Positions 38,211 to 44,285 of a stretch of DNA of 64,000 bases are shown in pieces; the stretch's first letter is position 1, and each line of letters begins with the position of its first letter. The translations under genes and the position numbers were made by a program. The stretch spans positions 62,001 through 126,000 of the forward strand of contig NZ_KB373316.1 in assembly GCF_000314795.2 (NCBI RefSeq), given 5' to 3'. The DNA comes from Streptococcus sp. F0442 (lineage in GTDB: Bacteria; Bacillota; Bacilli; Lactobacillales; Streptococcaceae). The notes beneath the pieces were generated by a model that was not told the origin of the DNA, ran no database searches, and saw nothing but the letters and a program-made list of their open reading frames with translations.

Positions 38211-38474
38211 TTAAAGTGATGTAAGGAAAGTCAATCCCCCTAGGATGACACCTGCCGAATTCGGAATGATCAAAATCCAGTCTTTTTTAGGTTCCTTTGT
38301 CCAACCATAAATGACCCAGATCAAGCAAGAAATAGCAGCTGACAAGGGTTGGAAAGGTTGGGCCTTATTTCCCTGTAAATTAGCAATAATTTGTGGGATG
38401 TAGGCAATGAAAACGATAATCCCAATAAAGGCACCGATCGAGCCAACGATTTGGTTGATTTTTTGTTTATTCAT
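38211..38474 (-). CDS. SemiSWEET sugar transporter / PQ-loop protein 1
   Basis: An 87-residue three-helix protein that dimerises to make a sugar channel-like transporter. The PQ motif is in FIAYIPQIIANLQGNKAQPFQPL on helix 1, helix 2 is AAISCLIWVIYGW, helix 3 GVILGGLTFLTSL. Divergent from a paralogue 280 bases away. Sugar specificity cannot be told. Confidence 0.9.
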   Translation of the reverse strand: MNKQKINQIVGSIGAFIGIIVFIAYIPQIIANLQGNKAQPFQPLSAAISCLIWVIYGWTKEPKKDWILIIPNSAGVILGGLTFLTSL

Positions 38475-38719: not shown

Positions 38720-38753
38720 AGTGCGTACTCAAAAAATGAAAGGTATTTTGAAA

Positions 38754-39011
38754 ATGAATGAAAAACAAATGAAAATTCTTGGTTGGGTTGCGACCTTTAT
38801 GTCTGTTATGATGTATGTGTCTTACTTCCCACAAATCATGGATAACCTCGCAGGTCACAAAGGAAACTTTGTTCAACCCCTTGTCGCAGCCATCAACTGT
38901 AGTCTTTGGGTTTACTACGGACTCTTCAAAAAAGAACGCGATATCCCACTTGCTGCAGCCAATGCTCCAGGTATCATCTTTGGTTTGATCACAGCGATCA
39001 CAGCCTTGTAA
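38754..39011 (+). CDS. SemiSWEET sugar transporter / PQ-loop protein 2
   Basis: An 85-residue paralogue of the divergent gene: PQ motif in SYFPQIMDNLAGHKGNFVQPL, then AAINCSLWVYYGLF and GIIFGLITAITAL. The frame runs from 38721, but ATG 38754 follows AAAGG at nine bases and starts at the family N-terminus. Homodimer is the rule in this family, but two co-located copies allow a heterodimer. Confidence 0.9.
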   Translation: MNEKQMKILGWVATFMSVMMYVSYFPQIMDNLAGHKGNFVQPLVAAINCSLWVYYGLFKKERDIPLAAANAPGIIFGLITAITAL

Positions 39012-39022
39012 TTAATGAAAGA

Positions 39023-39202
39023 GAGAGTGGGACAGAAATCGGTAATTCGTTAGAATTCGATTTCGTCGTCCCACCTCCGCACAGTTGAGTAGGGCTTAAA
39101 AGCTGATGAAATCAGCGTAGTAGAGCCCACTCAACCACTGCGTCTTTGCTTGACAATCCAAAGACAATTGAGAGGCCAGGACTTTTGTCCCAGCCTCTTT
39201 TT
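39023..39202 (+). repeat. dispersed structured repeat type 2, copy C
   Basis: Full copy, differing from copy A by a few bases (one base lost in GGGCTTAAAAG, CTTTGCTTG for CTTGCTCG). Ends in GTCCCAGCCTCTTTTT and lies directly after the SemiSWEET 2 stop, so it likely terminates that gene. Confidence 0.85.
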
Positions 39203-39225
39203 GGTGGAATGAATCATTTCCATGG

Positions 39226-39231
39226 TATAAT
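39226..39231 (+). promoter_or_regulatory. extended -10 promoter
   Basis: TATAAT preceded by TGG, 40 bases before the DUF1722 gene. Confidence 0.6.
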
Positions 39232-39270
39232 GGGAGGACTATTCATAGAGAAGATCAAAAGGAGACAAGA

Positions 39271-39648
39271 GTGGATCAAAAACATCACTGCCAAGTCCTA
39301 TGGGCGAAAAATAAATACCTGGTGCTCAGTCATTCCAGCAACATTTACAAGGAGATTCGAGAATACCTCAAGCAAGACCAGGTGGAGGTCAGCCACGTCG
39401 AGGACCTGATCCAGCAAGCGCTGGCCTTGCCGGAAAATCGTGGTCAGGTCTCCAATGCCTTCCAGCATATCTGGGGTTATTTTAAAAAGCAGGCGACTCC
39501 TGAGGAAAAGGCTGACTTCATGCTGCTACTTGAGAAATATCAGCATGGACAAGCTAGTCAAGAGGATCTCATCAAGGGGATCCAGACGCTCCTAGAGCGC
39601 TACCCGAATCGCTACTTACAAGACTCGACGCTACTAGGAGGTCAATAG
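39271..39648 (+). CDS. DUF1722 (YbgA-like) protein
   Basis: A 125-residue protein of the YbgA/DUF1722 family: LWAKNKYLVLSHSSNIYKEI at the start, SNAFQHIWGYFKKQATPEEK in the middle, LLERYPNRYLQDSTLL near the end. It starts at GTG, ten bases after AAAAGGAGA. In other bacteria this domain is often fused or adjacent to photolyase or other DNA-repair genes, and here the next gene (touching its stop) is a pyrimidine-dimer glycosylase, so a repair role is likely but unproven. Confidence 0.88.
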   Translation: MDQKHHCQVLWAKNKYLVLSHSSNIYKEIREYLKQDQVEVSHVEDLIQQALALPENRGQVSNAFQHIWGYFKKQATPEEKADFMLLLEKYQHGQASQEDLIKGIQTLLERYPNRYLQDSTLLGGQ

Positions 39649-40014
39649 ATGAGACTCTGGCACCAAGACTTGATTCCCAAACTTCCTCGTCCCCAGCTCC
39701 TGGGCCAACACCGGGAATGCTGCGCTCTTCGAGGCAATGGCTGGGGCAAGAAGCACGCGACGGTCAACTATGTCTTTGACTACTCTCCCTATCGTCTCTA
39801 TGCCTATCACCGACTAATCATGGAGGAGATGACCGCTCGTGGCTATAAGGTCAGCCCAGAGTGGTGGGAGTCGACCTACCGAGGCAAGAACTGTCCAGCC
39901 TATCCAGAGCTGGAAGAGGAAGCATTGAGCACACCCATCTATCCCGAGCATCAGGAAACTTACCTACAAGAATGTCTAGACAATCTAGCAGAAAAAGGGA
40001 TTTATTTAGATTAA
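39649..40014 (+). CDS. pyrimidine-dimer DNA glycosylase-like protein (T4 endonuclease V type)
   Basis: A 121-residue protein beginning MRLWHQDLIPKLPRPQLLGQ, then HRECCALRGNGWGKKHATVN, the signature of the bacterial TIGR02328/DenV-like family. T4 endonuclease V uses the N-terminal amine (after Met removal) and a nearby Glu; here Arg2, His5 and Glu23 (in HRECC) align with that layout. Expected to nick DNA at UV-induced cyclobutane dimers. Its ATG follows the upstream stop directly, after AGGAGG. Confidence 0.85.
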   Translation: MRLWHQDLIPKLPRPQLLGQHRECCALRGNGWGKKHATVNYVFDYSPYRLYAYHRLIMEEMTARGYKVSPEWWESTYRGKNCPAYPELEEEALSTPIYPEHQETYLQECLDNLAEKGIYLD

Positions 40015-40017
40015 GAA

Positions 40018-40047
40018 AGAACGGACCAGACCAGGTTCGTTTTTTTG
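40018..40047 (+). terminator. terminator before the MazG operon
   Basis: AACGGACC/GGTTCGTT stem (one G-T pair), six-base loop, then seven T. Confidence 0.75.
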
Positions 40048-40069
40048 CGCGAAAAACCAACAAAATGCT

Positions 40070-40106
40070 TTGAAAGCGTTAATTTCTTTCTCAAACATGC
40101 TATAAT
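40070..40106 (+). promoter_or_regulatory. promoter of the MazG/GIY-YIG operon with CRE-like sequence
   Basis: Extended -10 TGCTATAAT (TATAAT 40101-40106), 35 bases before the MazG start. TTGAAAGCGTTAATT at 40070-40084 resembles a CcpA site, matching all but one or two fixed positions, but could be chance in AT-rich DNA. Confidence 0.5.
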
Positions 40107-40140
40107 AATAGGAGATTATGCACAGGAAAAGGATAGACGG

Positions 40141-40479
40141 ATGAAGGAATTAATCGACTTAATTAATCAATTTAGAGATGAACGTGACTGGAGAAAGTTT
40201 CATAATGAAAAAGATCTAGCCATTTCGATTTCATTAGAAGCAAGCGAATTGTTGGAACTTTTTCAATGGAAACAATCAGAGGAGGTAGTTGAAAAATCAT
40301 TGCAAGATATCAAAGAAGAGCTTGCGGATGTTTTTATGTATTCTTTAATGTTGGCAGATAATTTGAATCTGGATGTAGAAGAAATTATAAAAGAGAAAAT
40401 GGATATAAATTCAAAAAAATATCCTGTAGAATTGAGTAAGGGTAGCAATAAAAAATATACGGACTTGGAGAAAAAATGA
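40141..40479 (+). CDS. MazG-like nucleotide pyrophosphohydrolase
   Basis: A 112-residue all-alpha NTP pyrophosphatase. The metal-binding pattern is present: SLEASELLELFQWK (ExxE) and KEELADVFMYSLMLAD (ExxD), followed by KMDINSKKYPVELSKG. It would hydrolyse (d)NTPs or modified nucleotides to monophosphates. ATG 40141 is chosen over the upstream frame since it starts at the fold. Its TGA stop overlaps the ATG of the GIY-YIG-DUF2075 gene, so the two are translated together. Much more AT-rich than the neighbours upstream, suggesting acquisition. Confidence 0.9.
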   Translation: MKELIDLINQFRDERDWRKFHNEKDLAISISLEASELLELFQWKQSEEVVEKSLQDIKEELADVFMYSLMLADNLNLDVEEIIKEKMDINSKKYPVELSKGSNKKYTDLEKK

Positions 40480-42206
40480 GCAACATTCAGTCACCTGTAG
40501 TCATAGAAATCGACTATTCAAGTCGAACATTTGATCAATTAAAAGAAACAATTGCACCAAAACATTCTAAGCTCATTTTTGATTACCCAACTGTATATAT
40601 CGTAAATGATGAAACTAAAAATAAGTATAGCGTATATGTTGGAGAAACAACAGATATTATTCGAAGAACAAATCAGCATTTGTCAGATGATATAAAGAAG
40701 GATAGAGAAGATTGGCGACAATTTGAACAATCTAAAACTTCTAAAATGTTTGTCATTGGGCATAACCATTTTAATAAATCATTGACATTGGATATTGAGA
40801 ATAAATTAATGCTCTATCTTTCAAGTGTTGAACAGGTTGAACGTGTTCAAAATAGAAGAGGGAATCCTCAAAATCAATACTATACTTCTGAGGAATTGGA
40901 CGAGATTTTTTCAAAGATTTGGAGAAGCCTAAATCGGAAAAACCACTATTTATTTCCAGCAGAAAGCTTTATTCGAAATTCAGCGATATTTAAATCCTCT
41001 CCATTTCACAAGTTAACGGATGAACAAGTAAAGGCCAAAAATGAAATTTTGCTAAAAATCACCTCTGTTATCAGTAGAAATAAAACAGGAGTTTTAATTT
41101 TAGTAAAGGGTGATGCTGGTGCAGGAAAAACAGTTTTGATGAGTTCTCTCGTTGATGATTTGTTGAATTCTGAAGATATTCAGATGATTCGTGAAAATAA
41201 TGATATCAATCTAGTTGTGAATCATGATGACCAACTCAGTGTTTACCAAGAAATTGAGAAAAAATTAGAATGGAAGAGTGGATCAAATATTAATGTTGTG
41301 ATGAAACCAACTCAATTTTTAAATGCTCTGAAAAAAGAAAAAACTGATGCTGGAATTGTAGTGGTTGATGAAGGTCACTTGTTATTGACTGCAAAAAATC
41401 AAGCCTATTTAGGCGGGAATCATTTAAATGATTTACTCGCTAAATCTAAAGTGGTCGTGTTAGTTTATGATGAAAATCAGATCATGAATAAATCCCAAAT
41501 ATGGACAGATGATGCTTTCTTGAAATTGGAGCATGAAGCCAATTTAAAAGGAAATCTCATTACACTACATAACCAAATGCGTATCCATGCAACAAAAGAA
41601 ACAGTTGAATGGATAAGAAACCTGATTGATGCTGGAGTTGTAAATGAGGTTCCAATTGATAATGATTATGATATTAGAGTTTTTGACTCTCCTGAGGAAC
41701 TTCAAAGTGCAATCATGGAAAAAAATGATAATCAGAGTTTAGGGATTTCACGCTTAACAGCAACCTATGATTGGGAATATAGTAGTCAATCAAAACCGAA
41801 GGATTCTGACTATTGGTGTGTCCGTATCGGAGACTGGTCTTGTCCGTGGAACAGACAACTTGCAAAAGAAAAAGAATCTAAACATTTATCCTGGATAGAG
41901 CAGTCTCAAACGATTCATGAAATTGGCTCAACGTTTACCGTTCAGGGATTTGATCTAAATTATGTGGGAGTTATCATTGGCCCATCTGTCAAATATAGAG
42001 AAGGGAAAATTATTTTTGATATAAGTGAAAGCAAAAATAAAAGTGCTGTTCAAAACAGAAAACTTGAATCAGGTGAAATGATTAATTACGGAGAAACATT
42101 ATTGCGAAATGAGTTAAATGTTTTGTTAACCCGTGGAGTTAACGGGCTATACGTCTATGCGGTTGATGAAGAACTTCAACAAGCATTAAAAAAGGCGACA
42201 AGATAA
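40476..42206 (+). CDS. GIY-YIG nuclease fused to DUF2075 (Schlafen-type) ATPase/helicase
   Basis: A 576-residue two-part protein. Residues 38-110 look like a GIY-YIG endonuclease (TVYIVND, KYSVYVGETTDIIRRTNQH). Residues about 205-570 are a P-loop ATPase of the DUF2075 group: Walker A KGDAGAGKTV near 212, Walker B GIVVVDEGHLL near 294, sensor motif LVYDENQIMNKSQ near 328, HNQMRIH near 366, and the terminal helicase-like NELNVLLTRGVNGLYVYAVD. Such proteins are found in accessory and defence loci. ATGA overlap with MazG implies joint function, perhaps nucleotide sensing coupled to nucleic-acid cleavage; this is inference. Confidence 0.87.
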   Translation: MSNIQSPVVIEIDYSSRTFDQLKETIAPKHSKLIFDYPTVYIVNDETKNKYSVYVGETTDIIRRTNQHLSDDIKKDREDWRQFEQSKTSKMFVIGHNHFNKSLTLDIENKLMLYLSSVEQVERVQNRRGNPQNQYYTSEELDEIFSKIWRSLNRKNHYLFPAESFIRNSAIFKSSPFHKLTDEQVKAKNEILLKITSVISRNKTGVLILVKGDAGAGKTVLMSSLVDDLLNSEDIQMIRENNDINLVVNHDDQLSVYQEIEKKLEWKSGSNINVVMKPTQFLNALKKEKTDAGIVVVDEGHLLLTAKNQAYLGGNHLNDLLAKSKVVVLVYDENQIMNKSQIWTDDAFLKLEHEANLKGNLITLHNQMRIHATKETVEWIRNLIDAGVVNEVPIDNDYDIRVFDSPEELQSAIMEKNDNQSLGISRLTATYDWEYSSQSKPKDSDYWCVRIGDWSCPWNRQLAKEKESKHLSWIEQSQTIHEIGSTFTVQGFDLNYVGVIIGPSVKYREGKIIFDISESKNKSAVQNRKLESGEMINYGETLLRNELNVLLTRGVNGLYVYAVDEELQQALKKATR

Positions 42207-42246: not shown

Positions 42247-42271
42247 TAGAGGGATCTTCCCTCTATTTTTT
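42247..42271 (+). terminator. terminator of the MazG operon
   Basis: TAGAGGGA/TCCCTCTA stem with 3-base loop and T-run. Confidence 0.88.
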
Positions 42272-42288: not shown

Positions 42289-43164
42289 ATGCAGAAAAGA
42301 CACGCGCATGTATCGCCGACCTTGGACATTATGGCCAAGAAGATTTTTAGTTTGCCAGAGGTGACGGCAGCATTTATTCGAGATATTTTAGAGCTGGATG
42401 TAGCAGACGCTCAGATTGTGGAGGGAAGCCAGCCCCACAATATGGCTTATGAGGAGGATGACTTGTTCTCCACTGCGGTGGATGTGAGAGCCAAGCTCCA
42501 TGATGGAACCGAGGTGATCATCGAGATCCAGATTCGCAAGCAGCAGTATTTCTTGAATCGGTTCCATTACTATTTGGCCAATCAGCTGGTGGAGAATGTG
42601 CAAAAACTGCGCCAGCAAGGACAGACACATAAGATGTACGAGCAGATGGAGCCCGTCTATGGGATTGCGATTTTGGAGAAGTCGCTCTTACTAGACGAAG
42701 AGGCCGCTATCAACAAATACTGGCTGACCAATAGCCGCTCTGGCAAGCAACTCAAGGCCTATTATAAAAATGGCAAGCACCAAAATCTTCTGCAGGTTGC
42801 CTTTTTAGAGCTAGACAAGTATAATAAAGATGAGAACCTGACAGATGCAGGCAGACAATGGTTGGAGTTTTTTGGGAATCTTCCCTTTACAAAAGCTCCC
42901 AGTCAGGCAGTTGCTCACGCAGATTCATTATTAGATTCATCTAGCTGGACCAAGGAGGAAAAGACCATGATAGACGAGCGTATTCGCATTCAAGAAAATT
43001 ATGATATGACCCTGGAGACGGCGATTGATGAAGCGCGAGAAGAAGGTCTGGAACAAGGTCGTAAACAGTTAGTGTGCGAAATGATCTCACGAGGAATGAC
43101 ACCTGAGTTTATCTCAGATATGACAGGTTTGTCGCTTGAAGAGATTGAGACTCTTCTTTCTTGA
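42289..43164 (+). CDS. Rpn-family PD-(D/E)XK nuclease (transposase-like)
   Basis: A 291-residue protein of the PDDEXK_2/Rpn family. The catalytic core is VDVRAKLHDG then EVIIEIQIRKQQYF (D-x-EIQ), followed by RFHYYLANQL and YGIAILEK. The C-terminal end is a charged helix with EEGLEQGRKQLV and a small helix-turn (MTPEFISDMTGLSLEEI). Family members promote recombination or act as DNA endonucleases; despite database naming they are not linked to a transposon here. Ribosome site AAAGGAG. Confidence 0.9.
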   Translation: MQKRHAHVSPTLDIMAKKIFSLPEVTAAFIRDILELDVADAQIVEGSQPHNMAYEEDDLFSTAVDVRAKLHDGTEVIIEIQIRKQQYFLNRFHYYLANQLVENVQKLRQQGQTHKMYEQMEPVYGIAILEKSLLLDEEAAINKYWLTNSRSGKQLKAYYKNGKHQNLLQVAFLELDKYNKDENLTDAGRQWLEFFGNLPFTKAPSQAVAHADSLLDSSSWTKEEKTMIDERIRIQENYDMTLETAIDEAREEGLEQGRKQLVCEMISRGMTPEFISDMTGLSLEEIETLLS

Positions 43165-44240: not shown

Positions 44241-44285
44241 AAGAGAGGAGGCTGGGACAAAAGTCCTAGCCTCTCAATTGTCTTA
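44241..44285 (-). repeat. orphan right-end hairpin of repeat type 2 (copy F, inverted)
   Basis: The sequence GAGGCTGGGACAAAAGTCCTAGCCTC with flanking CTCAATTGTCTTA is the reverse complement of the right end of repeats A-D. Only the last hairpin is present. It sits where the terminator of the dehydrogenase gene should be. Confidence 0.8.

Follow-up and report, generated by a model that had tools for sequence, protein, structure and literature searches.

Among the closest described systems is SauUSI, a type IV PLD nuclease-helicase that is listed, in the part of PMC3874153 consulted, as active on DNA containing 5-methylcytosine or 5-hydroxymethylcytosine (5hmC). The legend to a figure in PMC7641849 notes MutT homologues next to homologues of SauUSI. 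Another is CMoRE (PD-T4-3), which an excerpt of PMC12923530 describes as a single-component GIY-YIG type IV enzyme with a GIYxY-YIG motif and a small C-terminal 5hmC-sensing domain. We analyzed a 64,000-nt stretch of Streptococcus sp. F0442 (contig NZ_KB373316.1, positions 62,001 to 126,000; hereafter the window), in which a MazG-like gene overlaps a gene encoding a GIY-YIG nuclease fused to a Schlafen-type superfamily 1 (SF1) helicase, termed the nuclease-helicase below. This pair may represent a two-gene, methylase-free, restriction-type defence module whose MazG partner clears modified dCTP, a reading to which we give a probability of about 0.48. We place it with a known kind of system, the methylase-free restriction enzymes of nuclease-helicase type, in which MazG is an unusual partner.

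The pair resembles SauUSI in joining a nuclease and an ATP-dependent helicase in a single chain and in having an adjacent nucleoside triphosphate (NTP) pyrophosphohydrolase, and in some loci a SauUSI homologue adjoins the nuclease-helicase. However, SauUSI combines PLD, a ResIII/Helicase_C helicase and a NUDIX partner, while the pair combines GIY-YIG, PF09848 and MazG; neither PLD nor DUF3427 was found among the 23 Pfam families matched by the nuclease-helicase at E ≤ 1. Genomes with SauUSI-like genes also have fewer 5-methylcytosine (m5C) methylases, whereas those with the pair are not independently depleted. CMoRE shares the N-terminal GIY-YIG nuclease, a related fold and the methylase-free mode of defence proposed here. 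It differs in its motif, since the window protein has a single tyrosine, Y41, with Thr and Val at positions 39 and 43, and in its C-terminal part, which is an SF1 helicase in the window protein instead of a 5hmC-sensing domain; the window protein also has a partner gene. The pair was undescribed in the literature searched, with subscription journals and bioRxiv outside its scope, and the parts consulted of PMC11514479, PMC9519451, PMC12839542, PMC10952713, PMC1564403 and PMC5737866 contained nothing like it.

The nuclease-helicase and its MazG-like partner

The features of the locus are as follows.

40141..40479, forward strand: MazG-like gene (112 aa), all-alpha NTP pyrophosphohydrolase, DCTPP1-like
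40476..42206, forward strand: GIY-YIG nuclease/Schlafen-type SF1 helicase fusion gene (576 aa)
40476..40479, forward strand: ATGA overlap of the start codon of the second gene with the stop of the first, read from the sequence
40590..40865, forward strand: GIY-YIG domain, about residues 39-130
41007..42167, forward strand: SF1 helicase core, about residues 178-564
41109..41132, forward strand: Walker A, GDAGAGKT, residues 212-219
41367..41378, forward strand: Walker B/motif II, DEGH, residues 298-301
40098..40106, forward strand: extended -10 promoter element TGcTATAAT, read from the sequence
40116..40141, no strand: left edge of an exchanged segment, where homology with sister genome G281 ends just 5' of the start codon
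42247..42271, forward strand: terminator-like palindrome (42247-42265 itself) followed by T6, read from the sequence

An earlier note, made from this DNA alone, had described a MazG gene sharing ATGA with a GIY-YIG-DUF2075 fusion. Both open reading frames (40141-40479 and 40476-42206) are present, and both products had Pfam matches. The nuclease-helicase matched PF01541 (GIY-YIG; 3e-6, residues 39-84) and PF09848 (Schlafen group 3 helicase, formerly DUF2075; 1.3e-86, 291.5 bits against a cut-off of 24, residues 207-564). Among 65 aligned nuclease-helicases, the GIY-YIG residues Y41, Y54, G56, R64, H68 and E108 were invariant, as were G212, G215, G217, K218 and T219 of Walker A, D298/E299 of motif II and the helicase residues Q335, R369, Q490/G491 and R553. 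What the note had called a nuclease-like domain joined to a P-loop ATPase can be stated more sharply, as both domains carry invariant motifs.

Structure comparison agreed with these assignments. A whole-chain model had a predicted local distance difference test score (pLDDT) of 89.8, and its helicase part matched UvrD (Z 21.1), SLFN11 (19.6), DSH9 and HelD (19.0 each) and SLFN14 (18.7). A model of residues 1-175 (pLDDT 86.1) gave Z scores of 4.7-6.5 in the VIA comparison (first 11 rows listed). Known GIY-YIG nucleases accounted for nine of these 11 first-listed matches, which included six UvrC entries (5.7-5.9), I-TevI (5.8) and two CMoRE entries (4.8 and 4.7). The top matches were T4 EndoII and the N-domain of plant Grx (Z 6.5 each), both likewise GIY-YIG proteins. 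Because the Z scores of the N-domain are modest (below 8) and Foldseek alone returned no match for it at E ≤ 0.001, the GIY-YIG fold call rests jointly on the Z scores, the Pfam match and the motifs. Searches of the PDB with phmmer and hmmsearch gave no close relative with a solved structure for the fusion. The protein is like the group 3 Schlafens SLFN11 and SLFN14 in having a homologous helicase domain behind an N-terminal nuclease, but no Schlafen core/AlbA domain was among its 23 Pfam families at E ≤ 1 and GIY-YIG stands in its place. It is like UvrC and UvrD in its two folds; here, however, they are fused in one chain that is patchily distributed, partly on mobile DNA and partnered by MazG.

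The MazG-like protein matched PF12643 (2.1e-22), and its best solved relatives were 4qgp, a pyrophosphatase (2.4e-24), and DCTPP1/RS21-C6 (1.7e-20). The DCTPP1 alignment spanned residues 7-110 of 112, the C-terminal tail included. In 52 aligned rows W17, H21, E33, E36, W43, E60, D63 and Y67 were invariant, so that the ExxE...ExxD metal site (E33, E36, E60, D63) is present. The base pocket of DCTPP1 is given, in the part of PMC4491611 consulted, as His38, Trp47, Glu63, Glu66, Trp73, Glu95, Asp98 and Tyr102, and seven of these eight correspond to W17, E33, E36, W43, E60, D63 and Y67. According to the same source, the preferred substrates of DCTPP1 are dCTP and the 5-methyl and 5-halo forms of dCTP, with a lower Km for 5-methyl-dCTP, and in docking Trp47 and Trp73, the counterparts of W17 and W43, make an additional contact with the 5-methyl group. 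Orf135, RS21-C6 and DCTPP1 are named as 5-methyl-dCTP hydrolases in an excerpt of PMC10742078. On this likeness, near full-length and with metal and most base-pocket residues invariant, modified dCTP is the predicted substrate of the window MazG. Unlike DCTPP1, the window protein is bacterial, operonic with a nuclease and altered at His38. The solved relatives narrow the earlier, generic term nucleotide hydrolase to a DCTPP1-like enzyme.

Both enzymes look intact. The window's own genome had a single PF09848 match and a single PF12643 match over the cut-off, and the nearest named relatives, among the matches listed, were from Streptococcus parasanguinis (98% identical). In PADLOC, the nuclease-helicase had only five partial, weak matches, the best being PDC-S14 (1.2e-6, residues 37-159), and MazG matched no family at E ≤ 1. 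Neither protein is covered over its full length by a PADLOC model.

Conservation of the pair and its carriage on mobile DNA

The inheritance of the pair was analyzed in 80 named loci, which were the best 80 of at least 552 relatives of the nuclease-helicase. MazG adjoined the nuclease-helicase in 64 of them (43 downstream, 19 upstream, two divergent), and in streptococci it was the small upstream partner. A conserved MazG/DUF2075 neighbourhood, which had been set beforehand as a test, was thus found in three arrangements. In an independent order-survey set MazG lay beside the nuclease-helicase in 25 of 30 loci, five of them nearly identical. Rough parsimony on a tree of 78 of the 80 rows (a quick method with long branches flagged; L071 and L098, broken or short, were left out) required at least 14 changes of state, MazG being scored as upstream, downstream, divergent or absent. 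Among divergent fusions with GIY-YIG, 33-36% identical, MazG was beside 16 of 20 (20 of the 22 listed, G297 and G230, both with MazG adjacent, being left out), in contrast to none of 20 related helicases without GIY-YIG, which were part of those in the genome survey listing (Fisher p 1.5e-7). The two genes thus form a conserved unit, in which MazG follows the nuclease domain.

Apart from MazG, no neighbour family occurred in more than 11 of the 80 loci, and the family that reached this number did so at scattered distances; therefore no methylase is a regular companion, as far as the partly annotated neighbours go. Among the 395 genomes of the order, 52 intact close forms (class A) and 21 intact divergent forms (class B) were counted among the matches listed, sorted by hand. 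Close relatives were also found in one Lachnospiraceae and in two actinobacteria, of which Alloscardovia has MazG and Corynebacterium does not; this suggests transfer, their placement in the tree being unsure.

A parallel pairing was found for SauUSI-like genes: in 18 of 30 loci a NUDIX gene adjoined them. At plasmid locus L005 the solved relatives of this NUDIX protein include CTP pyrophosphohydrolases and MutT2, and the SauUSI-like protein has PLDc_2, ResIII and DUF3427 domains. A SauUSI-like gene lay within 1.2 kb of the nuclease-helicase in three of the 80 named loci (L049, L065, L084) and in four of 27 survey genomes having both (G212, G164, G029, G066; coordinates compared by eye), a proximity with a probability of about 4e-6 if a per-genome chance of 0.004 is assumed. 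A further candidate, L055, was not counted, as the gene is truncated at the end of its contig and the match was confined to 138 residues in the helicase part. In L160 the genes run GIY-helicase, MazG, NUDIX, SauUSI-like, placing two nuclease-helicase/pyrophosphohydrolase pairs together. That two unrelated nuclease-helicases are each accompanied by a pyrophosphohydrolase of modified-dCTP type suggests a shared need. At L237:2284-4415, one of the loci read for MazG without the helicase, a DCTPP1-like MazG gene lies 39 nt behind a GmrSD-type gene (GmrSD_N, DUF262), a possible third nuclease/pyrophosphohydrolase pairing.

Comparison with sister genome G281 showed that the slot of the pair has been exchanged with restriction genes. 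From 39214 to 40116, promoter included, the two genomes were 92% identical, and different genes then began near the start codon. Two proteins are encoded in the slot in G281: one is methylase-like, with 277 aa counted from a mechanically set start, and the other is a helicase/Eco57I methylase of 1462 residues, identified by PADLOC as type IIG (2.5e-126). Further right, three downstream genes of the window reappear in changed order, without the Rpn and dehydrogenase genes. The upstream gene stretch was matched in the genomes of 13 of 41 relatives, and the nuclease-helicase was found in none of the six of these 13 that were searched, in a search without a positive control. In one of the six, G396, there is a type I HsdR just upstream of the shared upstream gene. 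In G129 a 1259-residue, P-loop ATPase-like open reading frame lies just upstream of the DUF1722/Pyr_excise region. Since either of these lies upstream, the surroundings of the pair look like a site of gene exchange.

A complete pair was present on a 49-kb viral (prophage-like) contig, in the order endolysin, one open reading frame, pair, Doc-like toxin gene and integrase. Of seven plasmid loci read, two carried a complete pair: on L006 it lies beside HsdS and an N-6 methylase, and on L005 beside the NUDIX/SauUSI-like pair. On plasmid loci L008-L010 the nuclease-helicase was without MazG. A mobile role in defence draws support from carriage by the prophage-like contig and the two plasmids, and from the restriction-methylase locus that occupies the slot in G281.

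The pair is AT-rich, as had been noted before, with a G+C content of 0.328 compared with 0.418 for the window; equally low values occurred in 4 of 620 sliding windows of the length of the pair. The earlier attribution of an own promoter and terminator held in part. Both elements can be read from the sequence, and the extended -10 stretch is conserved in G281, whose slot holds other genes. However, a consensus promoter scan of the window found no promoter at 40098-40106 (it gave six in the window, below the shuffled mean of 9.7), and the palindrome at 42247-42265 was given on the minus strand only. The assignment of an own promoter therefore rests on direct reading and conservation in G281.

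Upstream of the pair, a DUF1722 gene is followed by a pyrimidine-dimer glycosylase (Pyr_excise) gene (39271-40014). Two small membrane genes on opposite strands (38211-38474, reverse; 38721-39011, forward) look like SemiSWEET sugar transporters. Directly after the pair an Rpn-family PD-(D/E)XK nuclease gene is located at 42289-43164, with a second copy, about 70% identical, some 2.3 kb further on in S. parasanguinis loci L041 and L043. The stretches 44248-44285 and 39015-39203 recur elsewhere in S. parasanguinis loci, some on the opposite strand, and look like dispersed streptococcal repeats. Two nuclease-helicases without MazG have other neighbours: a 1099-residue protein with a weak ThsA match (5.9e-12) directly follows one (L118:5235-8534), and a GajA-like gene (6e-167) lies upstream of the other (L081:5859-8174).

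A proposed restriction-type role weighed against its rivals

Because no methylase of its own marks self, a restriction-type module of this kind needs another way to spare the host. Most likely, the ATP-driven Schlafen-type SF1 helicase with its N-terminal GIY-YIG endonuclease would engage invading DNA, translocate along it and cut it, with modified pyrimidines in the DNA (e.g. 5hmC) or an abnormal structure as the most likely trigger. Self would be spared through the absence of the mark. The DCTPP1-like MazG would act as a guard by removing 5-substituted dCTP from the pool, which would keep host DNA unmarked, and it may additionally deprive phage of modified dCTP. A wider form of this idea, which we regard as doubtful, is discrimination of self and non-self through the nucleotide pool: a pyrophosphohydrolase of a type active on 5-modified dCTP would keep a forbidden base out of host DNA, replacing the methylase, and would have been recruited separately by modification-dependent nuclease-helicases of unrelated fold. 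It would embrace GIY-YIG/SF1 with MazG, the PLD/helicase SauUSI with NUDIX and perhaps GmrSD-like enzymes.

Several findings weigh against the restriction-type reading. No MazG was nearby for 16 of the 80 named nuclease-helicases; among these are two plasmid copies, L004, which neighbours type III-A CRISPR genes, and L007, which neighbours restriction genes. In the nuclease-helicase no domain for sensing modification was identified, and His38 of the DCTPP1 pocket is replaced by Ile8 in the window MazG, at a position that is not conserved. The DCTPP1-like MazG type was matched in 181 of the 395 genomes and also stands alone, as in 20 loci that were chosen for being without the helicase; 11 of the 20 share one conserved chromosomal neighbourhood. 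In these 11 loci (L230-L232, L235-L236, L240-L245) it lies beside a membrane gene that resembles a sortase, and is probably a housekeeping copy. Since the same type also stands alone, the pair has recruited an existing MazG family and did not give rise to it.

The defence-island test weighs in the same direction. Near genes (129 within 2.5 kb, out of 248, one per cluster, nearest first) were compared with far genes (129 beyond 6 kb, a random choice from 226) in a PADLOC scan at 1e-15, in which members were counted per family and not as unique members, so that the test is coarse. No general excess of PADLOC matches was found near the pair: there were 71 families near and 90 far, and among the first 25 listed of each the only families with three near members were two mREase_IV models. 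The term defence island was therefore rejected as a general statement. Defence-island enrichment, which the earlier note had proposed as a check, failed to appear, and its reading as a candidate defence pair is supported in part, by the viral contig, the plasmids and the exchanged slot.

Methylation data gave no pair-specific signal either. m5C methylases were found in 17 of 52 class A genomes compared with 158 of 310 negative genomes (p 0.016, kinship not modelled), but this deficit was not significant with SauUSI in the model (odds ratio 0.61, z -1.33). Among genomes without SauUSI, an m5C methylase was present in 12 of 20 with class A and in 92 of 154 without. Class B went in the opposite direction (14 of 21), and in three sister genomes the pair coexists with an m5C methylase; no such methylase was found in the window's own genome. 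The SauUSI control showed a deficit as expected (33 of 105 versus 118 of 190, p 5e-7). These counts set aside 12 genomes whose match was broken, partial or not fully listed (G320, G030, G240, G098, G171, G077, G152, G176, G230, G202, G355, G221), and the negatives include weak-match G023, G125 and G133 and genomes with only GIY-less helicases. As the test has power, 5-methylcytosine is not claimed as the target, which leaves hydroxymethylated pyrimidines or a structural trigger as candidates.

Some of these observations would fit a DNA repair or house-cleaning operon without any role against phage, in which MazG clears damaged dCTP (e.g. 5-hydroxy-dCTP) and a UvrC/UvrD-like nuclease-helicase excises what has been incorporated. 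Sanitising of the nucleotide pool is ascribed to MazG-family and MutT enzymes in the part of PMC10742078 consulted, the two folds match UvrC and UvrD, most loci have no recurrent defence neighbour and MazG occurs alone in chromosomal spots. We consider repair unlikely, as the intact forms are patchy in the order, the pair is carried by a viral contig and plasmids, its slot is exchanged with a restriction-methylase locus and its recurrent neighbour is a type IV restriction enzyme. Abortive infection by nucleotide depletion, in which infection unleashes MazG, or MazG with the nuclease, and destruction of dCTP stops replication, appears less plausible still. It would account for the conserved pairing and the invariant active site (52 rows), and the relative DCTPP1 does hydrolyse dCTP; yet the excerpt of PMC4491611 that reports this activity found no obvious change in cellular dCTP on over-expression or knock-down, related MazG genes standing alone on chromosomes argue against toxicity, and 16 of 80 systems are without MazG.

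Schlafens cut tRNA or other RNA with a different nuclease, and the PF09848 helicase, its matches to SLFN11 and SLFN14 (Z 18.7-19.6) and the order nuclease then helicase are shared with them. A Schlafen-like defence, in which the helicase would detect foreign nucleic acid and the N-terminal nuclease would have tRNA or other RNA as its target, is nevertheless improbable: UvrD and HelD score as high as the Schlafens, a dCTP-type partner suits DNA better than RNA, and the GIY-YIG relatives matched (UvrC, T4 EndoII, I-TevI, CMoRE) are enzymes that act on DNA. The overlap of the genes, with the small partner upstream in streptococci, recalls a toxin-antitoxin pair, with MazG binding directly to a toxic nuclease-helicase and holding it in check. 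Such restraint seems very improbable, given that MazG is absent beside 16 of 80 nuclease-helicases, is downstream in 43 of the 64 loci with it and keeps invariant catalytic residues, which a mere binder would not need.

Significance

If the restriction-type reading is correct, the pair would be a restriction-type defence that is common in lactic acid bacteria, streptococci, enterococci and staphylococci, has relatives in two actinobacteria and goes unrecognised by the PADLOC library used. It would offer a testable reason why nucleotide-cleaning enzymes stand beside methylase-free restriction enzymes, and would link human DCTPP1 and the human Schlafen helicases, which have been studied in other contexts, through a shared bacterial background. 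Should the nucleotide-pool idea hold as well, animal DCTPP1 and Schlafen would mirror two components of a single bacterial immune module. The module could also help to explain transformation barriers in these bacteria.

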